From Parcubacteria group bacterium (lineage in GTDB: Bacteria; Patescibacteriota; Minisyncoccia; Phycocordibacterales; Zambryskibacteraceae), in NCBI GenBank assembly GCA_028286805.1, contig JAQBQW010000028.1:1-33791 (forward strand): a stretch of DNA of 33,791 bases, read 5' to 3'. Both the position numbers and the translations under genes were made by a program. The first letter of the stretch is position 1; the number at the start of each line of letters is the position of its first letter. The notes below the pieces were generated by a model. The model saw only the letters and a list, made by a program, of their open reading frames with translations. It was not told the origin of the DNA and ran no database searches. Positions 3,283-29,270 of this stretch are shown one piece after another.

Positions 3283-4143
3283 TTAGTTCATCTTATTAAA
3301 GACTTTTAATTTCTGAATGACCAGCTTCTTCATTTCCGCCACCCCTTCGGCCATAAACTTATAGGGAGCGAGTTCGTCCGAACTCATGCCTCTTTCGATT
3401 CCCTTTTTATACGCCTGGCGGAGTTCTGTGTTGATATGGACAATTCGAACTCCCGCATCTATCGCCGCCGAGACTTCTTCGTCCGTATTGCCGGAGGCTC
3501 CATGGAGCACCAAAGGAACGCTGACCGCCTTAGCAATTTCCTTGATTCTCTCGATATTGAGCTTTGGCTCTCCTGATTTGATGAGACCGTGGATGTTGCC
3601 CACTGAAGGAGCAAAGAGGTCTACGCATGTTTCTTTCACAAAGGTGACCGCATCTTCAGCAGTGGTCTGAGTTTCTTCGGATACTCCTTCGGGTATTTCA
3701 TCTCTGAGCATTGAACCTGTTCCGATAAATCCAAGTTCTCCTTCAACCAGCATGCCGGGAGATTTTTCTCTCGCGTACTGAACGACTTCTTTTGTCATCA
3801 TCACATTTTCAAAGAAAGGTTTTTCAGCGCCGTCGATAATAACAGAATCAAAGGTATTGTCGACCGCTTCTTTCGAAGCTTCAACAGAATAGGTGTGGTC
3901 CGCATTCAAAAAGACGGGAAGGCCTTTATCTTTCTCCGCCTGAACCAATACGCGTATTTCAGCAACTCCCAAAAAGCTTCTTTCTTTTTCCGAGACCCCG
4001 ATAATGACCGGAACACCGAGTTCCGTTGCTGCTTCCACCACTGCTTTTAATCCCTCTGAATCTGAAATATTAAAATGGCCGATAGCGACGTTCTTTTCTC
4101 CCGCCCAGTCTATGTATTCTTTAAGTGTTTTCATACCTTTCAT
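3283..4143 (-). CDS. fba: Class II fructose-bisphosphate aldolase
   Basis: FNISDSEGLKAVVEAATELGVPVIIGVSE, NADHTYS, VEGELGFIG, LVLHGASGN. Start is MKGMKTLKEY (4143) or MKTLKEY (4134); the ORF-track start at 4242 is too far upstream. Confidence 0.85.
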   Translation of the reverse strand: MKGMKTLKEYIDWAGEKNVAIGHFNISDSEGLKAVVEAATELGVPVIIGVSEKERSFLGVAEIRVLVQAEKDKGLPVFLNADHTYSVEASKEAVDNTFDSVIIDGAEKPFFENVMMTKEVVQYAREKSPGMLVEGELGFIGTGSMLRDEIPEGVSEETQTTAEDAVTFVKETCVDLFAPSVGNIHGLIKSGEPKLNIERIKEIAKAVSVPLVLHGASGNTDEEVSAAIDAGVRIVHINTELRQAYKKGIERGMSSDELAPYKFMAEGVAEMKKLVIQKLKVFNKMN

Positions 4144-4180
4144 TCTAACACGCGGGAAAGAGTCGTGATAGAATATCCAT

Positions 4181-5173
4181 ATGAATGAATTTGTGGCAAT
4201 TGGAGATACCGTCGTCGATGCTTTTATCAGACTCGGAGACAAAAGCCGCGCCCAAGTAACTGGGACCCCGGACAGCGCGGACTACCGGCTCTCCATTCCT
4301 TTTGCAGACAAGATACCCTACGAAGATGTGACCATCATTAATGGCGTCGGCAATGCCGCAAACGCAGCCGTATCCGCCTCCAGGCTCGGTCTCAAGACAG
4401 CCCTCATTACAAACCTCGGCAATGATCAATACGGTAAAGACTGCATTGAACATTTCAAAAAGAATGGGCTCGACACGCGTTTCGTCCAGATTCACGTTAA
4501 TAAAAAGACCTGCTATCATTTTGCTCTCTGGTATGGCGCCGAACGCACCATCCTCATCAAACACGAAGAATATCCATATACTCTTCCAGATGTCGGCTCT
4601 CCGAAATGGATATATTTCAGTTCTGTTAATCAGAAAGCCTTTCCGTATCACGAACATGTGGCTGAATTTATGGATAAACATCCTGAAATCAAGCTTACTT
4701 TCCAGCCGGGCAAAGGAGAGATTGCGATCGGCAAAGAAAAGCTTGCTCATTTGTATAGACGCGCGGACATAGTCTTCTGCAATGTTGAAGAAGCTGGGAA
4801 AATCCTCGGTATCGAGACGCTGGGTGTTCAGGAACTTTTGAAGCGCATGCATGCTCTCGGACCAAAAATGATGGTCATCACAGACGGACCCAAGGGAGCA
4901 TACGCATTCGACGGAACAGATATGTGGTTTGTACCACCCTATCCCGATTCCAAACCTCCCTTTGAACGTACTGGCGCGGGAGACGCATTTGCTTCAACAA
5001 CAGTGGCAGCTCTCGCTCTTGGCCACGATCTCCCTACCGCCCTTTCAATGGGAGCGACCAACTCAATGTCTGTTGTTCAATATGTTGGAGCCCAAGAAGG
5101 CCTCCTTTCTATGGACCAAATCAAAAAGCACCTCGCAGAGGCGCCTTCTGATTTCAAACCTCGTAAACTTTAG
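4181..5173 (+). CDS. PfkB/ribokinase-family carbohydrate kinase
   Basis: 330 aa; NGVGNAANAAVSASRLGLKTALITNLGNDQYG near the N-terminus and ERTGAGDAFAST (anion hole/catalytic Asp). Confidence 0.88.
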   Translation: MNEFVAIGDTVVDAFIRLGDKSRAQVTGTPDSADYRLSIPFADKIPYEDVTIINGVGNAANAAVSASRLGLKTALITNLGNDQYGKDCIEHFKKNGLDTRFVQIHVNKKTCYHFALWYGAERTILIKHEEYPYTLPDVGSPKWIYFSSVNQKAFPYHEHVAEFMDKHPEIKLTFQPGKGEIAIGKEKLAHLYRRADIVFCNVEEAGKILGIETLGVQELLKRMHALGPKMMVITDGPKGAYAFDGTDMWFVPPYPDSKPPFERTGAGDAFASTTVAALALGHDLPTALSMGATNSMSVVQYVGAQEGLLSMDQIKKHLAEAPSDFKPRKL

Positions 5174-7506
5174 AAATTACCGAGCTGTTTTCTGATTGAA
5201 TCAATCAATGCTTGAATTGCAGTGAGCGTATTGGCTGAATTCGGAGCGACGGTGATCGTCACGCTTCCTGTCGAAGATCCTGCTGAGTTTGAACATGTCA
5301 CAGAATACGATGTGGTGGTCTGTGGCCATACAGCTGTAGTACCACTCGTATTCTGAAATGTTGGAAGAGCGCTCGAACATGTTCCTGCCACTGCACCAGT
5401 TGCAGACCAGGTGATGATTGACTGACCCCCAGGTGCAACAGTGAGCGGACTTGCGCTAATGGTCATCACAGGTTTTGTACCGGCTACTGTCGGAGCTACT
5501 GTAACCGTCACGCTGCCAGAGGAAGCGCCTCCTAATCCGTTACAATTTATAGTGTATGTTGTTGTCTGAGTTGGAGAAACCGGAACATTTCCGCTTGCTC
5601 CGTTGTAATTTGCATTGTAGAGACTTGGAATAGAACATGATGAAGCGTTTGTTGCATTCCACGATAGCCACGTAGTTCCACCTCCTGCTGGAAGAGACGC
5701 TGGGCTTGCAGTAAAGGTAACGGCGGGAGACGGATTAACAACAGCAGCCGCAGAAACATTTACGGTAGCGCTTGTTGGATTGCTAGATCCGGCAGTATTT
5801 GAACAGGTCATTGTATACGTGAATGCACCGGCAGCGGTAAATGCAGGAAGGCTTGTAACCGTACCTCCGGTTGTACCGTCAGAAGAAAGATTGGTTTTAC
5901 CCTGTCCTCCCCATCCAGGACCGTTACCGGTAGAAGAACAATATGTTGGTGAGTTTATGGCCTTCCATGTAAGGACGGGTCTATCGCCGACCTGTGCAGT
6001 CGTATTGTTAAGAGAAAGCGTAACAAGAGGAGAAACCGCTTGGGCTGTACACGAAGCCGATGCAGATGCGGAAGCGGAATTCGAGAAATTATACGTATCT
6101 ACTCCTCCAACCACAGGCATTACCTGGTAGGAATAACTTGCTCCGGGAGTAAGGTTTGTATCAGTCCATGAGGTATTTGTGGTTGAAGTGACTGGTCCTC
6201 CGTTTCTATATATTTTATATGTTGAGGCGCCGGAAACCGAGGTCCAAGACAGGTTCATGTTTCCTCCGCAGGCATAGTTAGTGCTGACGGTAAGGACTGG
6301 GTTTACAGGAGCTTGAGTGGCGGTAAGGATATTGACCGTCGAAGGCTGGCTTGTGCCGTACGCATTTTTACATGTAAGGGTAAACAATCCAGTGCCGTAT
6401 GTAGTCAGCGAACCCGAGGTGGTCGTGTCTCCATATTTATATGGCTGTTCTGAATTGAGGAGTAAACACGAGGTTGCATTTGTCGATGACCAGTTAAGAT
6501 TTGTTGGTTGACCGACATTTACAGTCGTTGGTGAAGCTGTAATTTTTGCTGTAGGAACTTGGTTTCCGGCTCCTGTACTATTTGAAGGATTATTTGAAAG
6601 AGACGTCCATGTTACAACCATCCCCTTTGTGTCGTCTTTGTAGGAAGAATTCCAGCACTGAACTCCAATGGAAGCGTAGCTTACGAGAGCACCGTATCCG
6701 TCTTTCTGTCCGGCAGTATTGAAGGTTCTGGTTCCGGAAGTAGGCAGGTTTCTATTATCCCAAGTCGTACCATCCGTGAAAGTCAGTTTGGTCTGGCCAT
6801 ATGTATTGCAGTATGAAGCATTTTTAGAATCCCAGCTGAATGTAACCGAACTTACATTTCCTAAATCCAACTGCGGCTGCATATAACCGGTGGATGAATT
6901 ACCGTTTACGCGGACATTCACAACCGGTGCCGATATAACTGATTGTGTATCAACAGGATTAATTGGAGTGATGGGAACTACCAGAACAGGCGGTTTAAGT
7001 TGGGTTGTACCATTACATCCATACAACTGATTCAATTTCATTCGAGTGCTGACTCCCACGAATCCGTTGCCAGACGTAAGTCCGTTTGGAGCCAAGATAT
7101 CACTCGCATATTTCTGTTGGAAGCTTCGAACTGCAGCTTCGGTAGAAACGCCGAATACTGCGCCTGCAGCTTTTTCATCAGTAGTTATTGTAAATCCTTC
7201 TCGCTCGAGTGCTTTCTGCAGATTCTCAATCATGCTTGATTGTGCGGAAGTTTGTCCGTCACCTATTTTCAAATTCTGGGTAAAGGTGTAGCAGAAACCA
7301 GTATTATTTGTAACCGTAGGAAATGTACCCGTTGGAACGTATGTGGGAGGTGTAGTTTGAGTTCCATTCTGAAGAGCTGAAATCTGCTGTAATAAAATAT
7401 TTACCTGTGCTTGGAGCTCATCGATAGTGGTAAGAGCTTTTGCTGAAGGAATGGAAACGAATAACAGGCCAAGGGAAAGCAACAAACCGGCAAATAATTT
7501 TTTCAT
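5170..7506 (-). CDS. Secreted surface protein: N-terminal peptidoglycan-binding domain plus Ig-like repeats with paired Cys and one FN3-like domain
   Basis: 778 aa, signal peptide MKKLFAGLLLSLGLLFVSIPSAKA; PG_binding_1-like SMIENLQKALEREGFTITTDEKAAGAVFGVSTEAAVRSFQQKYASD; repeated WSATNA(S/T)SC...TYT(I/V)xC units. Confidence 0.85.
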   Translation of the reverse strand: MKKLFAGLLLSLGLLFVSIPSAKALTTIDELQAQVNILLQQISALQNGTQTTPPTYVPTGTFPTVTNNTGFCYTFTQNLKIGDGQTSAQSSMIENLQKALEREGFTITTDEKAAGAVFGVSTEAAVRSFQQKYASDILAPNGLTSGNGFVGVSTRMKLNQLYGCNGTTQLKPPVLVVPITPINPVDTQSVISAPVVNVRVNGNSSTGYMQPQLDLGNVSSVTFSWDSKNASYCNTYGQTKLTFTDGTTWDNRNLPTSGTRTFNTAGQKDGYGALVSYASIGVQCWNSSYKDDTKGMVVTWTSLSNNPSNSTGAGNQVPTAKITASPTTVNVGQPTNLNWSSTNATSCLLLNSEQPYKYGDTTTSGSLTTYGTGLFTLTCKNAYGTSQPSTVNILTATQAPVNPVLTVSTNYACGGNMNLSWTSVSGASTYKIYRNGGPVTSTTNTSWTDTNLTPGASYSYQVMPVVGGVDTYNFSNSASASASASCTAQAVSPLVTLSLNNTTAQVGDRPVLTWKAINSPTYCSSTGNGPGWGGQGKTNLSSDGTTGGTVTSLPAFTAAGAFTYTMTCSNTAGSSNPTSATVNVSAAAVVNPSPAVTFTASPASLPAGGGTTWLSWNATNASSCSIPSLYNANYNGASGNVPVSPTQTTTYTINCNGLGGASSGSVTVTVAPTVAGTKPVMTISASPLTVAPGGQSIITWSATGAVAGTCSSALPTFQNTSGTTAVWPQTTTSYSVTCSNSAGSSTGSVTITVAPNSANTLTAIQALIDSIRKQLGNF

Positions 7507-7577
7507 GAAATAATGTTATGTATAACTACCCTTAATAGTAACAACCCCCCACGATTACACCACAAAAGCTATCCCCA

Positions 7578-8570
7578 CTATTTTGAGAGCTCTTTTACGG
7601 CCTTGACGATGTCTTTCTCCCCCAGTCCGTAAAATTCTATAATCTCTGCGGGAGTCCCAGACTGCCCAAATCGATCATTCACTCCAATAAAACGAATAGG
7701 AACGGGGAAGTTGGATGCGAGACATTCTGCTACGGCACTTCCCATTCCTCCGTGAATCTGATGCTCTTCAACTGTTACTATTTTTCCCGCTCTTTTAGCC
7801 AGAGTAATAACTGCTTCTGTATCTAAAGGTTTAATCGTTGAAAGATTCATTACTTCAACCAGAGTTCCCTCCTTCTCTAAAGTCTTTGCTGCAAGCAAAG
7901 CTTTATGAAGCAGCGCACCGGTTGCGATAATGCCTACTTGAGGAGTTTTGTTCACGCTCGGAGACCACATAATCTGCGCTTTTCCGATTTCAAACGGAGT
8001 GTCAGGGGTAGTCATAACGGGAGTTTTTTCTCTCGCGAGACGGAGGTAGACCGGAGTACTTGTTTTTGATATGGCAACGGTAGCCTTTTTTGCTTCTACC
8101 GCATCGCAGGGAGAAATAACCACCATGTTTGGCATGACGCGTGTAATTGCAATGTCTTCAATGGCCTGATGAGTTCCTCCGTCTGGTCCCACAGACACTC
8201 CAGCGTGGCTGCCGACAATTTTTACTGGGCGATCATTATAAGCAATGGTAGTTCGAATCTGTTCCCAGTTTCTTCCTGGAGAAAACATCGAGTATGAGGT
8301 GATGAAAGGAATCTTCCCCATGGCCGCCATACCGGATGCAACCGATGCCATGTTCTGTTCAGCCACACCCATTTCCACAAATCTGTTTGGAAACTTTTCC
8401 TTGAACTTATCCATCTGAGTGGATTCGGTTAAGTCTGCACACAAACCAACCACTTGGGGGTTTTCTTCGGCAGCCTGCACCAACCCTTCTCCGAAACCTT
8501 TTCGGATGGGAACTTGTTCGACATCTGCATCGAATAGTTTTTCGTTTAGTTTTAAAAGAGGGTTAATCAT
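7578..8570 (-). CDS. Transketolase, C-terminal subunit
   Basis: Start MINPLLKLNEKLFD at 8570. LTESTQMDKFKEKFPNRFVEMGVAEQNMASVASGMA and SHAGVSVGPDGGTHQAIEDIA are typical of the transketolase Pyr domain. Confidence 0.92.
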   Translation of the reverse strand: MINPLLKLNEKLFDADVEQVPIRKGFGEGLVQAAEENPQVVGLCADLTESTQMDKFKEKFPNRFVEMGVAEQNMASVASGMAAMGKIPFITSYSMFSPGRNWEQIRTTIAYNDRPVKIVGSHAGVSVGPDGGTHQAIEDIAITRVMPNMVVISPCDAVEAKKATVAISKTSTPVYLRLAREKTPVMTTPDTPFEIGKAQIMWSPSVNKTPQVGIIATGALLHKALLAAKTLEKEGTLVEVMNLSTIKPLDTEAVITLAKRAGKIVTVEEHQIHGGMGSAVAECLASNFPVPIRFIGVNDRFGQSGTPAEIIEFYGLGEKDIVKAVKELSK

Positions 8571-9429
8571 TATGGTGTCCCTGTATCTTACCTCCCAAAG
8601 AACGCAATTCCTTAATCGCCATTTCCGCTTCAACCGGAGTTGGGGGTTTGCCGTGCCAGCGATAATCCTGTTCGAATTCTTTCACTCCTTTGCCCGGAAT
8701 TGTATGGGCAATGATAACGGTTGGTTTCTCATAAATAGTTTTGGCCATTTCAAATGCATCTGCGATTTCTTCTATATTGTGTCCGTCTATTTCGATGACG
8801 TGCCAATTAAACGCCCTCCATTTATCCGAAAGCGGTTCAAGGGGCATGATGGTTTCGGTATAGCCGTCGATCTGAATATTGTTTCGGTCCACCACAGCCA
8901 CCAAGTTATGCAGTTTATTTTTCCCTCCGAGCATCACCGCTTCCCAGGTTTGCCCTTCCTCCTGTTCCCCGTCAGACATCATGCAGTAGATGCGTCTTTT
9001 GTGATCCTGCGCATCCATTGAATCTGCAATGGCCATACCCACCGCCTGGGAAAGTCCGGAACCGAGGGGACCGGAAGACGTTTCAAGCATTGGTAGAAAT
9101 TCCCTGTGCGGATGGCCTTGGAGTCGCGAGCCGAACTTTCTTAACGTTTTTAGTTCTTCCACGGGGAAATATCCCGAATGCGCCATGGTGGAATAAAGGA
9201 CGGGGCAGATATGTCCGTTGGACAAAACAAGCATGTCTCGTTCCGGCCACGTTGGTTCCGTAGGACGATGATTCAGCGTATGAAAATAAAGGGTGGAGAA
9301 TATATCAGACATGCCGAGAGGTCCGGCGGTGTGGCCGGATCCAGCAGCAACTAACATATCAATAATTGAAAGGCGAATATCATTCGCCTTTTCTTCGATC
9401 ATTGTTTTCTTTTCTTCAGTAAGGTGCAT
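8563..9429 (-). CDS. Transketolase, N-terminal (TPP-binding) subunit
   Basis: GHTAGPLGMSDIFSTLYF, LETSSGPLGSGLSQAVGMA, MMSDGEQEEGQTWEA...VVDRNNIQIDG. Overlaps the C-terminal subunit start by 8 bp (ATGATTAA). Confidence 0.92.
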   Translation of the reverse strand: MHLTEEKKTMIEEKANDIRLSIIDMLVAAGSGHTAGPLGMSDIFSTLYFHTLNHRPTEPTWPERDMLVLSNGHICPVLYSTMAHSGYFPVEELKTLRKFGSRLQGHPHREFLPMLETSSGPLGSGLSQAVGMAIADSMDAQDHKRRIYCMMSDGEQEEGQTWEAVMLGGKNKLHNLVAVVDRNNIQIDGYTETIMPLEPLSDKWRAFNWHVIEIDGHNIEEIADAFEMAKTIYEKPTVIIAHTIPGKGVKEFEQDYRWHGKPPTPVEAEMAIKELRSLGGKIQGHHND

Positions 9430-9432
9430 TAT

Positions 9433-10134
9433 TTAAAGTTCTAGAAAATCGAAAAGGGAACCTTCGGGATCGCCGGATTCAAAGATGGCGGATCCAACAA
9501 TCAATCTTTCTGCTCCGGCTTCGATCAACTCTTCGGCGTGTTCGATGGTCACTCCTCCGTCTATCGCAATAATCGTATCTTCGTGCGTCTTCTTCAGCTC
9601 CCTTATTCTATCAAAAATAACCGGATTAAACGCCTGTCCCTGCGAACCAATTTTATCTATTGCCATGAGCTGAACGAAATCCGCTTCGAGAACGTGCGGT
9701 AATACGTTTTCTATCGGCGTGTCTATGTTGACGGCCAATCCTATTTCTACACTAACCATGGAGGCAGCTGAACCGAATCGCTGTCTCAAACTATTCAATA
9801 CCGTGCTGACCTCATCGTCCGATTCAAAAGATTCGATATGAACGATTATCCTTTCAGCCCCGGCTCGAATCCAATCTTCGGCAATATCTTCTGGGTGTCT
9901 TACCATTAAGTGCGCTTCAAAGCTCAAATCTTCCCAGAAAGGAAAACCTTCGACCTCGTGTGCTATTTTTAGAAATTCAGACGGGTCTCCTGCATACGGC
10001 CATGAGGAACGGTCTGTCAGAGTTTTGTCTTCGACATCAATATGCACCATGGGAATGTGCCCGATTACCATCTCGAGTTTTTCATGAAGGTCTAAAAAGT
10101 CTTCGGGAAGAATCGCCGGGATGATGCTCGTCAT
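9433..10134 (-). CDS. rpe: Ribulose-phosphate 3-epimerase
   Basis: IIPAILPEDFLDL, HIDVEDKTLTD, AHLMVRHPEDIAEDWIRAGAERIIVHIES, AIDGGVTIEHAEELIEAGAERLIVGSAIF. Confidence 0.88.
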   Translation of the reverse strand: MTSIIPAILPEDFLDLHEKLEMVIGHIPMVHIDVEDKTLTDRSSWPYAGDPSEFLKIAHEVEGFPFWEDLSFEAHLMVRHPEDIAEDWIRAGAERIIVHIESFESDDEVSTVLNSLRQRFGSAASMVSVEIGLAVNIDTPIENVLPHVLEADFVQLMAIDKIGSQGQAFNPVIFDRIRELKKTHEDTIIAIDGGVTIEHAEELIEAGAERLIVGSAIFESGDPEGSLFDFLEL

Positions 10135-10574
10135 AGATTGTTTATTTTATTGATTCTTCTGATGTGTCTTTCGTCTCCGGAAAAGGGGGTGTCGAGCCAT
10201 AACTTGATGGCGTGTTTCGCTTCGTTCTCGTTGATGAAGCCGGAACCCAAGGAAAGAACATTCGCATCATTATGCGTGCGGGATAGTTTTATAATACTGA
10301 GTTCTCCTCCATACCAAAGCGCTGCGCGAATTCCCTCCTGCTTGTTTGCAGACATTGCTTCCCCTTGTCCGGATTTTCCCAACACAATTCCTTTGGATTC
10401 GGGATCCGCAGAAACAGCTCTCGCCACCGCAGAAATAAAGTCCGGATAATCGTCTGTTTCGTCATAGACGAATGCACCCATGTCTTCGGCCGTATATCCA
10501 AGTTCGTGCAAGAAGGGGATCAACTTCCCTTTTAATTCGAACCCTGCATGATCAGACCCAATATAGATCTTCAT
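10131..10574 (-). CDS. rpiB: Ribose-5-phosphate isomerase B family protein
   Basis: MKIYIGSDHAGFELKGKLIPFLHELGY...DYPDFISAVARAV...GIVLGKSGQGEAMSANKQEGIRAAL...SRTHNDANVLSLGSGFI. Confidence 0.92.
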   Translation of the reverse strand: MKIYIGSDHAGFELKGKLIPFLHELGYTAEDMGAFVYDETDDYPDFISAVARAVSADPESKGIVLGKSGQGEAMSANKQEGIRAALWYGGELSIIKLSRTHNDANVLSLGSGFINENEAKHAIKLWLDTPFSGDERHIRRINKINNL

Positions 10575-10576
10575 AG

Positions 10577-11611
10577 TTATTGAATTGAAGCCCCAAGTTT
10601 TGACACATGATCCACAAGCGTATAGGTGTACCCCATTTCGTTGTCATACCACGCCATCACCTTAATCAGATTTCCTCCAATGACTTTTGTGAGAGAAAGA
10701 TCTGCAATCGAACCGTATCGTGAACCCAAGATATCGGTTGAAACCAATTCTTCTTCAGTAACCGAGAAAATGCCTTCCCACTTCTTATCTGCTGCAGCTT
10801 TCTTTAATGCGGCATTTACTTCTTCCACGGTCGTATTTCTTTCAGAGATGAATGTTATGTCCACAATAGATCCTGCAATCACCGGAACGCGGATTGAAAG
10901 ACCGTCAAAGAGTCCGGTGAGCTTTGGAAATGCTTTGGTCACGGCAATTGCCGCTCCCGTGGTAGAAGGAACTATGTTTTGCGCAGCAGCTCTTCCCTCT
11001 CTAAATCCTTTTTTAGACGGACCATCAATGAGCGCCTGGGTGGCAGTGTATCCGTGTACCGTATTCAATACTGCTTTTTGAATACCTACAGCCGCATCAA
11101 GGATAGCAATGAGAGGAGAACCTGCGTTTGTGGTACACGATGCATTTGAAGTGATCTGGCATGTAGCCAACTTATCTTCGTTCACTCCCATGAGGATGGT
11201 GGCACCTTCAATACCGGCAATCGGTTCATCTTTCATCGGCGCGGTCACCACAACTCGTTTTGCACCTGCATCGAGATGAACCTTGGCTTTTTCATACGAT
11301 GTAAACAATCCTGTAGATTCAACCACAATATCAATATTCAAATCTTTCCAAGGAAGTTTGGCCGGATCTTTTTCCTGAATAAACTTGATTTCATGCCCGT
11401 CGATAATAAGAGCGCTTTTATCCGCTGAAACTTTCACGTCTAAATCAGATTTGCCGTATACCGTATCGTATTTGAAAAGATAGGCAATATTTTCAATATC
11501 TCCCAAATCATTCATGGCAACAACATCCAATTCTGGATGTTCTTTAGCCAATTTATAAAACGCGCGTCCGATTCTGCCTGCGCCGTTAACGGCTACTCGT
11601 ATTGTTTTCAT
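10577..11611 (-). CDS. gap: Glyceraldehyde-3-phosphate dehydrogenase, type I
   Basis: VAVNGAGRIGRAFYKLA, SNASCTTNAGSPL catalytic Cys motif, VHGYTATQALIDGP, WYDNEMGYTYTLVD. Confidence 0.95.
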   Translation of the reverse strand: MKTIRVAVNGAGRIGRAFYKLAKEHPELDVVAMNDLGDIENIAYLFKYDTVYGKSDLDVKVSADKSALIIDGHEIKFIQEKDPAKLPWKDLNIDIVVESTGLFTSYEKAKVHLDAGAKRVVVTAPMKDEPIAGIEGATILMGVNEDKLATCQITSNASCTTNAGSPLIAILDAAVGIQKAVLNTVHGYTATQALIDGPSKKGFREGRAAAQNIVPSTTGAAIAVTKAFPKLTGLFDGLSIRVPVIAGSIVDITFISERNTTVEEVNAALKKAAADKKWEGIFSVTEEELVSTDILGSRYGSIADLSLTKVIGGNLIKVMAWYDNEMGYTYTLVDHVSKLGASIQ

Positions 11612-11623
11612 AAATCTAGTATA

Positions 11624-12637
11624 TCACGCAACAGTTTCTGTCTTCTCCTCCACTTTCTTGGCTGAAGCGTGTCCATCTACCTCATACGAAGTGTTTTGAG
11701 CCTCAAAGAAGTTCACCAATTCGAATACGTCTGTGGCGGTAGACATCCATTTTGCGGGGTTTGTCGCATTATAGTGCTTTGGCAATCCGAGCTCTTCGAG
11801 TCTTCTGTCTGCCACATACTGCACATATTGGTTCACATAATCCGCATTCAAACCAAGAATACCCTGGGGGAACAAATCCTTGTTGTATGCAGTTTCGAGA
11901 TCCACTCCATCGATAATAATCTGCTGGATTTCATTGGCGAATTCTTCGGTTAACAGTTCTTCGTTTTCTTCGAGAATGGTGTGAACGAGGTTAATGCCGA
12001 ATTTAAGATGGAGGGATTCATCTCGGATAACCCAGTTGATCATCGAACCGAAGTTTCGAAGCTGGTTTCTTTGTCGGAACGAAAGCGCCACCATGAAACC
12101 GGAATAGAACCAGATTCCTTCCATGACGATGTTTGTGGCAACCAAATTTCGGATGAAATCTTTCTTTCCTTCAACGCTTGAGATATCGAGGGTATCTTCG
12201 GTCATTCTCCTCATGTATCTATTGATGTAGTCTTCCTTGGCGGTCATTGAAGGAACATTCAAATGAAGATCGAAAATCTTTTCTTTGTCGAAAGGGAAAG
12301 TTTGAAGAACGTATTCGAAAGCAACGCAGTGGTTTGCTTCTTCCCACATCTGCTTTGCAAGATACAGATGGCATTCCGGGGACTTGAGATACGGGTAGAT
12401 TCCCAAAGCGATCGAACGGTTAACAATGAGTTCTGCAGGATTGAAGAACGCCATCAAAAACTTAACGGCGTGTTTTTCGTCTTCGGTCATATTCGCCCAG
12501 TCATCTAGATCTTCTTTCAGTGTGATTTCGTGCGGAAACCAGGTGTTTCGAACTGCTTGGTTGTACAAATCATATGCCCATTGGTACCTGATGGGGTGTA
12601 GGTTCATATCGTCCGGCGTGGCTTTTCCGATGAGCAT
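11624..12637 (-). CDS. nrdB: Ribonucleoside-diphosphate reductase beta subunit; residues fit tyrosine-less class Ic
   Basis: Ligand motifs PAELIVNRS, WEEANHCVAF, VMEGIWFYSGF, RDESLHLKFG. ORF can extend to TTG at 12664, but ATG at 12637 (MLIGKATPDD) is more likely. Confidence 0.93.
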   Translation of the reverse strand: MLIGKATPDDMNLHPIRYQWAYDLYNQAVRNTWFPHEITLKEDLDDWANMTEDEKHAVKFLMAFFNPAELIVNRSIALGIYPYLKSPECHLYLAKQMWEEANHCVAFEYVLQTFPFDKEKIFDLHLNVPSMTAKEDYINRYMRRMTEDTLDISSVEGKKDFIRNLVATNIVMEGIWFYSGFMVALSFRQRNQLRNFGSMINWVIRDESLHLKFGINLVHTILEENEELLTEEFANEIQQIIIDGVDLETAYNKDLFPQGILGLNADYVNQYVQYVADRRLEELGLPKHYNATNPAKWMSTATDVFELVNFFEAQNTSYEVDGHASAKKVEEKTETVA

Positions 12638-12654
12638 TGGGAATATTAAATTAA

Positions 12655-15267
12655 TTACTGGCAACTAATACATGCGTTTGCATCTGCAGGATCCTCCGGC
12701 ATATGGATGGTATATCCTCCTGAAGGAGCAGGCTTCTGAATCTGCGCGGTCATCTCGATCATTTCAACCGGTTCAACTCGCACTACAATACCAGATTCAA
12801 CGGGGATGGTAATAGGTGCAACTTCTTCAACAATGTGTTCAATTATTGGAACAGGTTCTTCTTTTATCGGTTCAGTTACGGAAGACAATCCCGCTACCGC
12901 TCCGAATCCTTTTCTTCCCATCTTTTGTGCCTTATTCACAGCCACGGTGGACTGTTCGGCGGTGTGACGAGGCTTCATATGGAGATAGTAGGTGGATTTC
13001 AAACCTTTCTTCCAAGCGGTTGAATAGAGGTCCATCATGACGTCCACATCTCGTGAATCGAGATAAATGTTTCGAGACAATGCCTGGTCAGTCCATTTCT
13101 GCGCCCGTGCGGCAACTTCAACATATGCGTACGGAGAAGTAGTAAACGAAGTTTTGTATATATCTTTGATGTGCTGGGGAATCTTGTCTATGTTGGTAAG
13201 GTCTCCTTGGTGCGCAATGATCTGTTCCTTTACTTCATCCCAGATACCTAGGTTGTTGAGATCTTTAACCAAGTTGTGGTTAAGATCAAGATATTTTCCG
13301 GAAAGAGTGTTTCGAGAGAATACCTGAGCAAATCGTCCGTCGATGCCGGGAACGGTTCCTGCAACGAGACCGATGGTTGCATTTGGAGCAACCGCCATAA
13401 GAGTGGCGTTTCTCATTCCCTTCTTCACTTTTTCTCGGAGGATATCCCAATTAAGGCCCTTGTGGTGGGAAACTTTGTCTACAGCAAGAGGGACTCCCCG
13501 TCTGTCTTCGAGTATTTCAAGAGTATCAATTGGAACCTGACCCTTGGACCAGCGTGATCCTTCAAAGTTTTTGTAGCTTCCTCGTTCCTGGGCAAGATTG
13601 GCGCTTTCGTCTATTGCCATGTATGAGACGAATTCAAAGATTCGGTCGGTAAAGTTATAAGCAGCTTCGGATTCATAAGCAATACCAATCTTTTCAAAAA
13701 CGTCTGCAAGTCCCATCACTCCGAGTCCTACTGCTCTGTTCTCTGAATCTGATTTTCTGGCCTCAGCAATAGGAAGAAGGTTGATATCGATCAAGTTATC
13801 GAGCTGGCGAATAGCGGAACGAACGGTTTCTTCGAGTTTCTGCCACTGAATCTCTTTGTTAATGATATGCGCGGCCAAGTTGAGCGATGCGAGGTTGCAT
13901 ACAGCGATATTGTCTTTATCCTGAGGCAAACAAATCTCTGTACACAAATTAGACATGTGAATCGTACCTGTATTGTTGTTCATAGCGCGGAGGTTGATCG
14001 GATCTTTCCACACTTGCCATGGATGAGAGGTTGTCTGCAAAGCAACGAGCATCTGACGATACAATTCTTTGGCTGGAACTTTCTTAAACATATACAATTT
14101 ACCCTCTTCTGCCATTTGGACGTACTCCATATATCTTTTAGAGAATACTTTTCCATACATTTCATTCAAATCCGGAGTTTCTGCAGGATCGAACATGTAC
14201 CAGTCTTCTCCAGTACCAACACGCTTCATAAACTCGTCTGAAATGAATGCTGCTGTATTTGCCGTGCGCATTCTCATGTAATCGTCTCCCGCATTATGTT
14301 TCCATTCGAGGAAATCAGGAAAATCATAGTGCCAGGTTTCCATGTAGAAACAAAGCGCTCCTCTTCGTTTGCCGGCACGCATGATGGCACGTATTGCCGT
14401 ATCCATAATCTTGGCAAAAGGAGTTGGGCCGGATGATACTCCGTTAGTAGATTTGAGCGGAGATCCGGATGCGCGAAGCTTAGTCAAAGAAACTCCCATA
14501 CCTCCCGAACCTTTGGAGAGCATCATGACGTCAGAAACGGATTTAGAAATATGCGCCATGTCATCATGGACTTCCATGAGGAAACAGTTGGCGAGGGCCG
14601 GACGAGTGGTACCCGCACCGAGGTTAACCGAACTGCCTGCGATATATTCCATGCGAGACATCTTGTCGTAGAAACGGATTGCGGCATCAGTTGGATTGGC
14701 TTCGTTGTACGAGAGTCCCATGGCAACGCGCATAAAGAAAATTTGAGGCGTTTCAACGTGATCCTGATTCTTGTTGGTCAACAAATAAAGTTCTGCCACC
14801 GTTGAGATGCCCGTGTACTGAAAAAGACCGTCTCGTTTGAGATCAAGAGCTGCAGCTAACATAGGAAGATCGAACTTTTCTCTCATTCGAACATCTAACC
14901 TGCCCTCGGCGATTCCTTCTTCGATGTATCGATTGAAATATTCTTTATGCTTAATATCCAGAGTATGAGGATCGTTGTCATAAGGCCCGAGAACCTTTTT
15001 GTATATTGTTTTCAAGAAAAGACGGGTGGCAATAGTGTCATATCCGAGGTCATCTTTAATGTTTTGAACGGCGGCAATAATAGTTGCCTGGTCCATCTGT
15101 TCTGTTGAAATGCCATCGTAGACTGTCAATCGAGTATCAGTGGCAACCTGCATCACTTTTGAGATCGGATCGGTAAGACCGAACGCTGCGCGTTCGATCG
15201 ATTTGTTGATCATATCCGCATTAAATTCCTCTTTTGTACCGTCTCTTCGTGTGATGTATGGACTCAT
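12655..15267 (-). CDS. nrdA: Class I ribonucleoside-diphosphate reductase alpha subunit with N-terminal ATP-cone
   Basis: ATP-cone ITRRDGTKEEFNADMINKSIERAAFG; ALANCFLMEVHDD; NLCTEICLP; AVCNLASLNL; APNATIGLVAGTVPGID; radical-relay YY in STYYLHMKPRHTAEQSTV; C-terminal CISCQ. Confidence 0.95.
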   Translation of the reverse strand: MSPYITRRDGTKEEFNADMINKSIERAAFGLTDPISKVMQVATDTRLTVYDGISTEQMDQATIIAAVQNIKDDLGYDTIATRLFLKTIYKKVLGPYDNDPHTLDIKHKEYFNRYIEEGIAEGRLDVRMREKFDLPMLAAALDLKRDGLFQYTGISTVAELYLLTNKNQDHVETPQIFFMRVAMGLSYNEANPTDAAIRFYDKMSRMEYIAGSSVNLGAGTTRPALANCFLMEVHDDMAHISKSVSDVMMLSKGSGGMGVSLTKLRASGSPLKSTNGVSSGPTPFAKIMDTAIRAIMRAGKRRGALCFYMETWHYDFPDFLEWKHNAGDDYMRMRTANTAAFISDEFMKRVGTGEDWYMFDPAETPDLNEMYGKVFSKRYMEYVQMAEEGKLYMFKKVPAKELYRQMLVALQTTSHPWQVWKDPINLRAMNNNTGTIHMSNLCTEICLPQDKDNIAVCNLASLNLAAHIINKEIQWQKLEETVRSAIRQLDNLIDINLLPIAEARKSDSENRAVGLGVMGLADVFEKIGIAYESEAAYNFTDRIFEFVSYMAIDESANLAQERGSYKNFEGSRWSKGQVPIDTLEILEDRRGVPLAVDKVSHHKGLNWDILREKVKKGMRNATLMAVAPNATIGLVAGTVPGIDGRFAQVFSRNTLSGKYLDLNHNLVKDLNNLGIWDEVKEQIIAHQGDLTNIDKIPQHIKDIYKTSFTTSPYAYVEVAARAQKWTDQALSRNIYLDSRDVDVMMDLYSTAWKKGLKSTYYLHMKPRHTAEQSTVAVNKAQKMGRKGFGAVAGLSSVTEPIKEEPVPIIEHIVEEVAPITIPVESGIVVRVEPVEMIEMTAQIQKPAPSGGYTIHMPEDPADANACISCQ

Positions 15268-15898: not shown

Positions 15899-18800
15899 TT
15901 AACGAATGTTCGATTGAATGAATGTTTGAGTTTTTGGACCGTAATATCCGACAGGAGGCGTGATACCGTACTTCACCTGGAATTCTGCCAGCGCAGTTTT
16001 GGTCAGAGGACCGAAATAATGCGTAATGCCATTTTTTACAAGCGCACGTGCAGCCGGACCTGCGTTCAATGTTGCAAGTAACTTCTGCAGATCGTAGACA
16101 TCATTTCCTTTTGCTCCTATTTCAAGATCTCTACCCGTTGATACCGGAACAGATGCTAAGACATCCAGCAATGACTGTGGAACCACAATTCCCAAAAGCT
16201 GGGCCTGGAGAATCAAACTTCTATTATTCTGAATCAAAAGAATTTGTTGGGCGGACAGCGATGTGTTCTGTGGCGTTACCGGAGAAGGAGAAGAAGCACT
16301 CGATGATGTTCTTCTCTTACCGCTTATTGATAATGTGAGCGCTCCGTTACCGCCGGCAGTGAAAGGCGGAAGGGTGAAAGTTACTATCTCGTCGCTTAGA
16401 TTGGCGTTGCCCAATTGATCCACACAGCGTATGTAGTATGTATATGTCGTGCTTGCCTGCAAGAAGTTCGCTCCGAAACTATGGCTCGTGCTTCCGGTAA
16501 ATATGAAGAGTCCGCTCATTGAAATATATGGAGTGCCCGCAGATGTGCTGTAACGGCATGTGGCATTCTCGTTCGTGGTTACATGAACGCTCACGCTCGC
16601 CACTCCGGCGGTCAATGTACCTGAAGGAGAGACACCGCTGATAACGGGAGGGGTTGTATCGCCCGCCCCGTTGGAAACGGTGACCGTTACGGCAGTGGAT
16701 GTTGCATAATTTCCCGCTCCGTCTCGAGCAACCGCAACCAGAGAATGGCTTCCATCGGTAGCCGAGGTGGTGTTCCATGTAATTCCATATGCGGATGAAG
16801 TGTCTTCTGTGCCCAAATTGGTTCCGTCGAGTTTAAACTGAACTCCAATTACTGATGTATTGTCTGAAGCAGTTGCGGACACAGCCACCGAAGAACCTGA
16901 CACCGTGGCTCCGTTTGTGGGAGCGGTCATCGATACAGTTGGAGGAGTCACATCTCCCCCGCTGCCAATGGTGAATGAAATAGTGTAGTCGGTCGGATTA
17001 ACAAACGAGTTTATATCCGAACATCGCACATAATACGAATGCGCTCCGACCGAAAGACCGGTCAAACCTTGGCTGTGACTAGTTCCTCCCGTAGACGAGA
17101 ACGTGGAAGCGATCGAAGCGTACGCGGTTCCCGGCACCGTTCCGTATTTACACGTTGCGTTTTCATCCGTTACTACAGTAAGCGTTGCAGAAGTTGTTGT
17201 TGAAATGACGCCTGCGGGACTTCCGCCGGATACTACCGGCGGAGCGAAGTCTCCAGTCAGTACCCCGGCGGTTTTTGCATTCAACGTCGTCATGTTTACT
17301 CCAATATCCGTACCGTCAGAAGCCGTATTGTGTCCTGGACTATTTGAGGCAAGACGGAAGTCTTGTCCGGCAAGGTTGACGAAGTTGACCGAGGAAATAC
17401 TTGCCAGGGCAACGTTTGTAGCGGGATACGAAGCATTGTTTGTAGATTGAATGAGGTTATTTAAGAATGTACCGCTTCCGGTGAATACACCGACTGACTG
17501 AGTACCTTCAGTCAGTCCGGGTGCTTTAACTCCATATGTCGCGCCGGCAATAAGGTTGTCATTTATTCTTGTATTACTATCCGGCATGCCAGCTGGTTCT
17601 ATGGCGAATCCAGAAGTTGTCGCAATAAAGGTATTGTGCTTGAACGTCATGTCGGTTTGACTATCGAAGAGAGTTAGTGCACTTCCCTTGTCTCCAATAT
17701 ACGGAGGAGTGTTGACGTTATATCCGAGGTTGTTTGCAAACAACATTTTCTGCGCAGGGATCATTAAGTTTTCTCCGTCGCCAGAATCAGAAGGGATTTT
17801 CAAAATTGCTCCAACGTTTCTAATGATGTTGTTAGTGAAGGTGATATTTGCAACGATCGTCGTTGTCGCACCTGCTCCCCCGGAATCCTGCTGGTTGTTT
17901 CCCTTGATGTTGACACCCGTTCCATCTTGGTTGGCATTCCAGTTTCCGTCTAGAATGTTTCCGTCGATAAGCATGCGCTGTGCAGTCTTCAACTCGAATA
18001 AGTTTTTAACATTCCACCAAGGCTGTCCGTCTGATCGGGAGAGTGCACAATATGTAGCATCTGTTCTCCATGATGCTGGCTTGTAAAGATAATTGTGTCT
18101 AAACTCGATATCAGAAGGTACCGCTCCAAGGATTGCAGGATCTCCTCCTCCAAAGTTCAAGTTTTCTCCGGATGCTTCAAGGAAGTTGTTCACAATCTTA
18201 TATGGACCGAAGGAATTTAATCCGTTGATTGCCTGAGCATCAAATCCACAGGTCTTAAAGTTTGATATGTACGAATCAACGACGGTTGTGGTGGCGCTGT
18301 TCATTGAAATTCCTCGACGATCCGAATCCGCATCATTGCCGTGAATATACATGCGGTCAAAAATCAAATCGTGTGGAAGATCCCCAAGAATACCGCTCGG
18401 ATTGCCGAATATATCTCGCGAACCTCCCGTATCAATCAGCTGGCCGTTGTAATTAAATTCATCAGCAACAAATCCGGTTGAAACCGCGGATGCCACTTCA
18501 ATTCCAATCATGCGAATATTATGTGTTTGAGCAACAGTTTGAATTGCGGGACCCGTATCGGTGGTAATAATTTTTGCCATGTGTGACGCAGAAGTTGAAC
18601 TGACGCGATTTCCTTCTGTTTCGAGTCCCGCCATATCAGAGGTTCGAATAGTGAGCCAGCCTGAGCCTGTGGTGATTTTTGGCAAGACAAACGGACCGCT
18701 GTATGTTTGTCCTGCGGTTAAGATAATTTCATCTCCGAGAGATGCTCGCGGAAGAATGTAGTAGAGAGCGGCGGTTGTAGTTGCATTCCACGTCACTCCT

Positions 18801-21418
18801 GTAACCGGTGTCGATGTGGCTGCGCTGTTGATCAGCACGCGAGGCAACTCGGGAACATATTCTGTATTTTGAATTGGATCGGTTGTACCGGTATCCGTTG
18901 AAGTGGCAGACGTTCTGCCTTGAGCGTCGATGGCAACCACTTGATACGTATATGTAGTTGAAGAAGCAAGAAGTTTATCCGTATACCAATATCTGCTTGC
19001 GATAGTCGTCGTAGCTAATACGCTGTTCCTGTAAAGGTTGTAATGAAGCGCGGAACCGATTGGCGACGTCGATTGATCCCATAACAAGTCGATAAATGTC
19101 GGAGATACTCCGGTTGCCATAAAATTACCAGGGGCTGATGGTGCGTTGTTTACAGTAACTGAGATTGCACTTGATGTTGCAAAATTTCCCGCCGCATCTC
19201 TCGCTACCGCCTTTAATGTATGAATTCCGTCAGAAGTGGTGGAGGTGTTCAAACTTTGAGACGAACTCGCCATGTTCGCACCGCCATGAAATCCGATGCT
19301 TGTGTTATCCAAAAAGAATTCTATTCCAACAACTCCGATGTTATCAGAAGATGTCGCGCTGATGGTGAATGTGCTAATTCCATAGACCGTCGAACTTGCA
19401 GCGGGAGAAGTCAGCGTGATCGAAGGAGGTGTGACATCTGCCGAAAGAATAGTAAATGAAATTGTGTAATCAGAAAGATTCGCATTGGAGAAGGCGTCGC
19501 GACAGCGGACATAATACGTGTAGACAGCAGGAGTAAGGCCGGTCAGGCTTTGACTGTGCGCTGTACCGCCCGTTGTAGAAAATGTGGAAGCGATCGAAGC
19601 GTATGCGGTTCCCGCCACCGTTCCGTATTTACACGTTGCATTTTCGTCTGTCGTTACAGCCAACGTTACCGCGGTAGTCGTTGAAGTAAATGTTCCGGAA
19701 GGAGATCCTGCAGAAATTGCTGGGGCAACCGTATCGGAAGCGGGCGTAGTAGTTGCAACAGTACTCGACAATGACGACTCATTTCCTGCAGCATCAAATG
19801 CAGAGACCGCATACCCGTAAACGGTACTTGTAGCAAGACCTGAGTTCGCATAAAAAATACTTGTCGTGGTGGCGATAGAAACTGTCGGAGTACATGCGCC
19901 GCCGGTACAGCGGTAAATATTGTAGTACGACACTCCGACCGCATCAGTCGAACTTGCCCATGCAAGATTTATCAATGTCGGAGAGGCCGGCGTTGCAGTG
20001 AGGCCGGTTGGAGTTGTCGGCGCCACAATATCTAAAAATTCGTCGGCTCCGATATCCCATGTTCCCGATCGGGTTTCGCCATCAATGTCGGTTGTAAACG
20101 GAAAGACGGCATCTGCTGCGAGGCTAGCTCCCTGATCTTTTGCTGATATATCGGTACCGAGCAAATGGTAGTTTGGGGTAGATGTGCTGACAAACAATAC
20201 CGTTTTAAGCGTCTTTGGGTTTGTGCCGTTAGAGGTACTGTCAGAGGAAAGGTTGTTCGTTCGAACGACCGTCGCGCTTCCGAAAGAATTGTAGTCATAA
20301 TCTCCGGCCGGATGTCCTGTGGAAAGGTTGTTTTTGATCCAATATGCACCGGCACTGGTAGTAGCATATCCTTCAACATATAACCCCTTGCTTGAAGAGG
20401 GTCCGGCCACCAAGGTGTTGTTATAGATATACGCCTTGCCGGAAAAGCTTTCCATTTTTATATTTACAAAAAATCCGTAAATAACGTTGTTCACAATTTT
20501 TACAACGTACACAGGAGGGGCGCTGCTCGTGTTAAAAACAACTCCTGCATTGGAAGCATCCACAGCGGTACCGGTTTTTTTCAAAACTGAATTCGTAATC
20601 ACCACCGAGGCATCAGTCGTTGCGTTTACCGCCGTCCAAATAGCATCGCCCTGCTCTCCTCCTCCAATCTGATTCCTATTATTTTCAATTTGAATTCCAT
20701 CAATGGTAATAAAAATTCTGTCCGGCAAAAGAAGCGTTCCGAAATAGTTGTTTGAAGTGACGTGATATTTTGTATCATCCCACACTCCGTTTGGTCTCTG
20801 CGATACTCCGACTTCAGTAGATAATCCCGGAGAAAACAAACGAATGTTTCGCGTCGCATCCGTTACCCAAGGCGTGCTCAATTGTCGCGTACCGAAATCA
20901 ACAATATCAACATCTCCGCTTGTTCCATTTCCATACAATGCAATGTTCCATTGCTGATCCGCTGTCACCAAGTTGAGACCGGTGGTGAATGTATCAAAAT
21001 TTCTGAGTCCGGAAGTAATGCCGGTGTTCTCAATTCCAGACACAACGTTTTGGAGAGAAGTATATGCACGGTAAATGGCCCAGTTCTGCATCGAGCTTGT
21101 GGTGGTCGAAAGCGAAGCTCCGGATGCTGTCACAAGAGAATAAACTGTCGAGCTGGTGCGTCCTGAAATAAATGCGATCGTGTCTGTGGCTGAAGCGGAA
21201 GCAAAGACAAGAGCATCTCCCACTCCAATATTTGTTGGTAGCGGAGAAGCAAACGTGGCAACAGATCCGGAAACAGTGAGCGCATTTGATCCTCCTATTG
21301 TCAGTGCTGATGACTTACCGGATGCAACAGAACGATAGATTGCCGACGCTGCAAAAACGTGATGAGACGAAAGTACGAAAAAAAGTAAGAAAACAAATCC
21401 AAAAAAAACTTTCTTCAT
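15899..21418 (-). CDS. 1839-aa surface protein: beta-helix segments, FN3 and Ig-like repeats, C-terminal peptidoglycan-binding domain
   Basis: Signal peptide MKKVFFGFVFLLFFVLSSHHVFA; beta-helix-like N/I-rich segments (e.g. HDLIFDRMYIHGNDADSDRRGISMNSATTTVVDSYISNF); three ENATC(K/R)Y repeats; C-terminal DLQKLLATLNAGPAARALVKNGITHYFGPLTKTALAEFQVKYGITPPVGYYGPKTQTFI. Confidence 0.88.
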   Translation of the reverse strand: MKKVFFGFVFLLFFVLSSHHVFAASAIYRSVASGKSSALTIGGSNALTVSGSVATFASPLPTNIGVGDALVFASASATDTIAFISGRTSSTVYSLVTASGASLSTTTSSMQNWAIYRAYTSLQNVVSGIENTGITSGLRNFDTFTTGLNLVTADQQWNIALYGNGTSGDVDIVDFGTRQLSTPWVTDATRNIRLFSPGLSTEVGVSQRPNGVWDDTKYHVTSNNYFGTLLLPDRIFITIDGIQIENNRNQIGGGEQGDAIWTAVNATTDASVVITNSVLKKTGTAVDASNAGVVFNTSSAPPVYVVKIVNNVIYGFFVNIKMESFSGKAYIYNNTLVAGPSSSKGLYVEGYATTSAGAYWIKNNLSTGHPAGDYDYNSFGSATVVRTNNLSSDSTSNGTNPKTLKTVLFVSTSTPNYHLLGTDISAKDQGASLAADAVFPFTTDIDGETRSGTWDIGADEFLDIVAPTTPTGLTATPASPTLINLAWASSTDAVGVSYYNIYRCTGGACTPTVSIATTTSIFYANSGLATSTVYGYAVSAFDAAGNESSLSSTVATTTPASDTVAPAISAGSPSGTFTSTTTAVTLAVTTDENATCKYGTVAGTAYASIASTFSTTGGTAHSQSLTGLTPAVYTYYVRCRDAFSNANLSDYTISFTILSADVTPPSITLTSPAASSTVYGISTFTISATSSDNIGVVGIEFFLDNTSIGFHGGANMASSSQSLNTSTTSDGIHTLKAVARDAAGNFATSSAISVTVNNAPSAPGNFMATGVSPTFIDLLWDQSTSPIGSALHYNLYRNSVLATTTIASRYWYTDKLLASSTTYTYQVVAIDAQGRTSATSTDTGTTDPIQNTEYVPELPRVLINSAATSTPVTGVTWNATTTAALYYILPRASLGDEIILTAGQTYSGPFVLPKITTGSGWLTIRTSDMAGLETEGNRVSSTSASHMAKIITTDTGPAIQTVAQTHNIRMIGIEVASAVSTGFVADEFNYNGQLIDTGGSRDIFGNPSGILGDLPHDLIFDRMYIHGNDADSDRRGISMNSATTTVVDSYISNFKTCGFDAQAINGLNSFGPYKIVNNFLEASGENLNFGGGDPAILGAVPSDIEFRHNYLYKPASWRTDATYCALSRSDGQPWWNVKNLFELKTAQRMLIDGNILDGNWNANQDGTGVNIKGNNQQDSGGAGATTTIVANITFTNNIIRNVGAILKIPSDSGDGENLMIPAQKMLFANNLGYNVNTPPYIGDKGSALTLFDSQTDMTFKHNTFIATTSGFAIEPAGMPDSNTRINDNLIAGATYGVKAPGLTEGTQSVGVFTGSGTFLNNLIQSTNNASYPATNVALASISSVNFVNLAGQDFRLASNSPGHNTASDGTDIGVNMTTLNAKTAGVLTGDFAPPVVSGGSPAGVISTTTSATLTVVTDENATCKYGTVPGTAYASIASTFSSTGGTSHSQGLTGLSVGAHSYYVRCSDINSFVNPTDYTISFTIGSGGDVTPPTVSMTAPTNGATVSGSSVAVSATASDNTSVIGVQFKLDGTNLGTEDTSSAYGITWNTTSATDGSHSLVAVARDGAGNYATSTAVTVTVSNGAGDTTPPVISGVSPSGTLTAGVASVSVHVTTNENATCRYSTSAGTPYISMSGLFIFTGSTSHSFGANFLQASTTYTYYIRCVDQLGNANLSDEIVTFTLPPFTAGGNGALTLSISGKRRTSSSASSPSPVTPQNTSLSAQQILLIQNNRSLILQAQLLGIVVPQSLLDVLASVPVSTGRDLEIGAKGNDVYDLQKLLATLNAGPAARALVKNGITHYFGPLTKTALAEFQVKYGITPPVGYYGPKTQTFIQSNIR

Positions 21419-27273: not shown

Positions 27274-29270
<1,997 letters not shown>

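Follow-up and report, generated by a model that had tools for sequence, protein, structure and literature searches.

A tyrosine-less class I ribonucleotide reductase of a Parcubacteria genome, probably with a class Ic-like Mn/Fe oxidant, in a clade apart from Chlamydia R2c

The 33,791-nucleotide stretch of DNA analysed here (the window, contig JAQBQW010000028.1 of a Parcubacteria group bacterium) encodes a class I ribonucleotide reductase (RNR) whose radical-generating subunit R2 has no radical tyrosine at the usual position. This R2 almost certainly operates without a tyrosyl radical at that site and, because its ligand set is intact without the tyrosine, a metal-based oxidant is likely. Judging from the residues and the predicted fold, we put the probability that this oxidant is Mn/Fe, and that class Ic is an apt functional description, at about 0.7. 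As a taxonomic label, class Ic needs qualifying, because the protein belongs to a separate clade and carries Trp at the site of Chlamydia trachomatis Y222. Class Ic has so far been regarded as one compact cluster in which the Y222 relay is conserved; the clade described below adds another widespread tyrosine-less lineage, which has Trp in that place.

The enzyme is encoded by two genes, of which nrdB directly follows nrdA on the same strand:

11624-12637, minus strand: nrdB, R2, tyrosine-less class I radical-generating subunit (Pfam PF00268, E 1e-78; NCBIfam NF007186, 365.6 bits against a cut-off of 237; phmmer against PDB 1SYY, C. trachomatis R2, E 6.5e-75, 38% identity)
12655-15267, minus strand: nrdA, R1 catalytic subunit with an N-terminal ATP cone (PF02867, 4e-166; PF00317; PF03477; NF005101, 1195 bits)

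The nrdA product reads with the cysteines of NLCTE and AVCNL, a YY pair and a C-terminal CISCQ. A longer nrdB start is possible at TTG 12664 (open reading frame 11624-12664, minus strand), but ATG 12637 is probably the true start, as close relatives begin with MLIGKAS. Residues are numbered here from TTG 12664; counted from ATG 12637 each number is nine lower (E69, E100, H103, F107, E173, E207 and H210 for the six ligands and the radical-site Phe). Alignment with C. trachomatis (Ct) R2 placed the following residues:

12539-12541, minus strand: W42, conserved relay tryptophan (Ct W51, E. coli W48)
12431-12433, minus strand: E78, first metal ligand (Ct E89), Asp in class Ia/Ib
12338-12340, minus strand: E109, metal ligand (Ct E120)
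12329-12331, minus strand: H112, metal ligand (Ct H123)
12317-12319, minus strand: F116, radical-tyrosine position (Ct F127, E. coli Y122)
12119-12121, minus strand: E182, metal ligand (Ct E193)
12107-12109, minus strand: F186 (Ct F197), between the two metal sites, Ala in R2lox (PMC4118035)
12032-12034, minus strand: W211, replacing the activation-relay tyrosine Ct Y222
12017-12019, minus strand: E216, metal ligand (Ct E227)
12008-12010, minus strand: H219, metal ligand (Ct H230)
11684-11686, minus strand: Y327, subunit-interface tyrosine (Ct Y338, E. coli Y356)
11624-11674, minus strand: C-terminal tail past residue 330 and stop, unconserved in sequence and length, pLDDT <50

The six ligands and F116 align one-to-one with the published C. 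trachomatis ligands and F127, so that the ligand set proposed in an earlier, sequence-only reading of this DNA stands, together with its spacings of 31 (E78-E109) and 34 residues (E182-E216), its Glu rather than Asp as first ligand, and its Phe at the radical-tyrosine position (codon 12319-12317). In a second alignment, control R2s of the E. coli-type class Ia (L162), class Ib NrdF (L163, L168) and Pseudomonas aeruginosa type (L161) carry Asp at the first-ligand column and Tyr at the radical column, so a misalignment does not account for the Phe; the nrdB product has no tyrosine at the radical position. Nor is the pair a matter of chance, since F116 is kept in 91/91 sampled clade members and E78 in all 90 having that column. 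Glu is paired with Phe, and Asp with Tyr, in all aligned R2s except five distant Glu/Tyr proteins. A distant R2 type of Patescibacteria (L023, L072, L073, L154, L155) combines a Glu first ligand with a Tyr radical site and has Glu in place of Asp215; in one genome (G033) it adjoins an unusually short R1 open frame of 560 aa.

An AlphaFold2 model of the nrdB product, built from 28 sequences (pLDDT 88), has as its top PDB match the Mn(II)Fe(II) form of C. trachomatis NrdB (TM 0.88, rmsd 1.5), and the 13 best matches are all C. trachomatis NrdB, with class Ia R2s scoring far lower; the Mn/Fe enzyme is thus the closest solved relative both in sequence and in fold. With C. trachomatis R2c (1SYY, 4D8F, 4M1I) the protein shares the six ligands including four Glu, the radical-site Phe and the equivalents of F197, W51 and Y338; it differs in its identity of only 38%, its separate clade, the change of Y222 to Trp and the lack of a conserved LxW-type C-terminus. 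The R2 of PDB 6Y2N, which comes from Saccharopolyspora erythraea (PMC7467353), likewise has the Glu/Phe pair and the ligands and superimposes on the query with TM 0.85, but is only 34-35% identical and joins the Tyr-containing P. aeruginosa-type R2s (100/100). These P. aeruginosa-type proteins and patescibacterial Asp/Tyr R2s (L161, L003) are class I R2s of a neighbouring superclade, about 34-36% identical to the query, but unlike it they have Asp and Tyr at the diagnostic columns and an LxW-type C-terminus.

In a scan of species genomes, members of the query clade were found in Parcubacteria, Nomurabacteria, Staskawiczbacteria, Falkowbacteria, Kaiserbacteria and Saccharibacteria, and in many Actinomycetota (Demequina, Jiangella, Microbacteriaceae, Aeromicrobium, Mumia), and, at 45-47%, in Thermoflexus. 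The actinobacterial nrdAB genes share with the query an R2 about 60-66% identical, the Glu/Phe/Trp combination, an unconserved tail and an adjacent nrdA, but belong to aerobic, free-living bacteria whose genomes are larger. The model NF007186 (PRK09614.1-5, ribonucleotide-diphosphate reductase subunit beta) is also the top-scoring one for the members from Demequina and Thermoflexus, and is uninformative on radical residue or metal. F186 is invariant in the clade, and Trp211 is present in 90/90 members having that column. The same column in 35 Chlamydia-type Glu/Phe R2s holds Tyr in 21 and Phe in 14; Y222 of R2c, described as conserved among R2c and as the relay partner of W51 in reducing Mn(IV)/Fe(IV) (PMC4118035), is not conserved in the query. 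A Trp at this column also occurs in the patescibacterial Asp/Tyr R2s L059, L064, L065, L068, L070 and L071, and in a pelagiphage R2 (L167). Past residue 330 the clade shows no conservation, nor does it have the LxW-type end seen in the Chlamydia-type group, so its contact with R1 may differ.

In R2 trees computed after masking both trait columns, the query clade falls separately from a large clade that unites Chlamydia R2c, the S. erythraea type, the P. aeruginosa type and the patescibacterial Asp/Tyr R2s, and the R1 tree gives the same separation. A single clade of all Glu/Phe R2s was rejected (AU p 0.00015), mostly because the P. aeruginosa-type Asp/Tyr proteins are sister to the S. erythraea Glu/Phe group with support of 100/100; constraining the Chlamydia and S. 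erythraea types together gave p 0.0013. For the query clade constrained with the Chlamydia clade, the AU p was 0.045-0.049 with outgroups and 0.32 without outgroups and the P. aeruginosa type, and a strong claim that its Glu/Phe pair is independent from that of Chlamydia was dropped on these values. The Glu/Phe signature is thus homoplasious across R2 as a whole, and the marginal result for the query clade suggests that the pair may have arisen separately there. This picture, as drawn from the trees, departs from the tight cluster that tyrosine-less NrdB is said to form (PMC4390871). Since the pair switched more than once between Asp/Tyr and Glu/Phe, both residues jointly, it is better taken as a functional signature than as a marker for one subclass. 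In a larger R1 and R2 tree the Saccharibacteria and Actinomycetota each form one clade, so that intermingling of the two was rejected. Tropheryma whipplei has been listed as class Ic (PMC4009431).

Placement among the known subclasses gave a mixed answer. Class Ia/Ib is ruled out by the Glu and Phe, and NrdI, whose absence counts against class Ib-type activation, was not found in the window genome; class Ie, in which carboxylate ligands are lost and the Tyr is modified to DOPA, is ruled out by the presence of all ligands and a site without Tyr; profiles and residues together exclude class Ib, class Ie and R2lox. The suggestion that the enzyme is likely class Ic is borne out by the Glu/Phe pair, the six ligands, F186, W42, Y327, the fold and the nrdA partner, but not by phylogeny, which puts the protein in a deep clade of its own outside the Chlamydia-type clade, nor by the Trp in place of Y222.

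The R2 and the adjacent ATP-cone R1 would together form a working class I RNR. That the enzyme is functional is very probable, as it is the sole class I/II RNR found in the window genome, and searches gave a single class I/II R1 locus in 7 of the 12 actinobacterial clade isolates, including the closed Demequina sediminis genome. In the proposed mechanism the metal centre itself would hold the one-electron oxidant. The most likely form is the Mn(IV)/Fe(III) known from Chlamydia class Ic, given that the first ligand shell and F186 equal those in R2c. Tryptophan is redox-active, which makes a W42-W211 relay in activation a reasonable inference: the extra electron could pass through this Trp-Trp pair in place of Chlamydia W51/Y222. 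The oxidant would then travel via W42 and Y327 to the R1 YY pair and on to the R1 active-site cysteine. Formation of the cofactor would start from Mn(II)Fe(II) and use O2 or H2O2, both known as activators of the Mn/Fe cofactor of class Ic (PMC8463856). A review notes the difficulty of assigning metal sites a priori on the basis of sequence (PMC4118035), and an Nramp transporter, which was not found in the window genome, counts against Mn/Fe by its absence; Mn may enter by a route other than Nramp.

It is unlikely, though to be taken seriously, that the tyrosine-less R2 uses another metal oxidant, for example the Mn(IV)/Mn(III) of class Id, or Fe(III)/Fe(IV). The position of the query clade apart from Chlamydia R2c in both R2 and R1 trees would fit such a cofactor, as would the altered surroundings created by Trp at the Y222 site and by Trp185 beside F186. 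The first shell and F186 are nevertheless the same as in C. trachomatis R2c, the class Id structures are distant (6cwo and 6sf4 at E about 1e-14, against 6.5e-75 for the Chlamydia protein), and the missing NrdI also speaks against this reading. Far less probable is a protein radical on another residue, such as W211 or Y118, in the tyrosyl radical's stead. Both residues are invariant within the clade, but Y118 corresponds to Ct Y129, which is no known radical site, and Trp at the 211 column is found in some Tyr-containing R2s (the L059 group); no R2 is known to keep its resting radical on Trp.

We give almost no credence to the protein being an R2-like ligand-binding oxidase (R2lox) in place of an RNR subunit, even though R2lox also combines all-Glu carboxylates with a Mn/Fe centre (PMC4118035): R2lox models reach at most 85 bits against cut-offs of at least 194, the RNR-beta model reaches 366 bits, F186 stands where R2lox has Ala, and both the interface Tyr327 and an adjacent nrdA are present. 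Decay into a non-functional R2 after loss of the tyrosine, conceivable in a small genome of a presumed host-dependent organism, is just as implausible, given that the Phe is fixed in 91 homologues, including those of aerobic free-living bacteria with no other class I/II RNR found, and that the remaining functional residues are all intact. The clade offers a natural test for the outer-sphere residues that a Mn/Fe oxidant requires. Only tentatively, and on balance doubtfully, would we read it as a deep, separately evolved tyrosine-less class I lineage common to Patescibacteria and aerobic Actinomycetota, with a class Ic active site reached by convergence, activation through a two-tryptophan relay and R1 docking without a conserved LxW-type tail.

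In the window genome, which is 577 kb long and 97% complete, there is a single R2 and a single R1; NrdD was not found in it, and a class II search matched only its own R1. Because no class II or III RNR is detectable, dNTP synthesis in this organism probably needs O2 or H2O2, in keeping with the remark in the sequence-only reading that known class I enzymes are activated by O2 or peroxide. Superoxide dismutase (SOD) is present, as it is in 57/61 relatives, where it does not track RNR type, and a COX1 search found no heme-copper oxidase in the window genome; the RNR fits O2 or peroxide exposure better than strict anaerobiosis. Among 61 genomes of the order, R2 was found in 24 and a class II (RTPR-like, B12-type) RNR in 37, with both in 4, neither in 4 and NrdD in 0/61. 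This near mutual exclusion of class I and class II (Fisher p 1.2e-8, indicative only, as related genomes are non-independent) suggests that a genome of this order has an RNR of one kind or the other, oxygen-activated or independent of oxygen. It indicates that some ultra-small, probably fermentative Patescibacteria have an oxygen-activated RNR while relatives have the B12-type; such an enzyme would make DNA synthesis in these bacteria dependent on meeting O2 or peroxide. Across 384 phylum genomes R2 occurs in 52, of which 20 are query-type, 11 Chlamydia-type Glu/Phe, 8 Asp/Tyr of the same superclade and 13 others. Within the library covered, a literature search found no paper on RNR subclasses in Patescibacteria.

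Where relatives lack class I RNR, they have a divergent RTPR-like class II enzyme of about 780 aa (L156, 953-3301, minus strand; L157, 409-2793, plus strand), scoring under the NCBIfam cut-off of 340 bits. Two genomes of the window's family (G013 and G014, 93 and 100% complete) have no detected class I, II or III RNR and may rely on imported deoxynucleotides or on a very divergent RNR. Elsewhere in the window, sugar-phosphate genes lie downstream of nrdAB (3283-11611, minus strand: GAPDH, rpiB, rpe, transketolase and class II fructose-bisphosphate aldolase), the transketolase being split into two overlapping genes (8563-9429 and 7578-8633). A cpn60/TCP-1 family chaperonin gene of 550 aa is found at 27274-28926 (minus strand), and the product of 15899-21418 (minus strand), 1839 aa long, has bacterial Ig-like domains, ends in a peptidoglycan-binding domain and is likely a surface protein.
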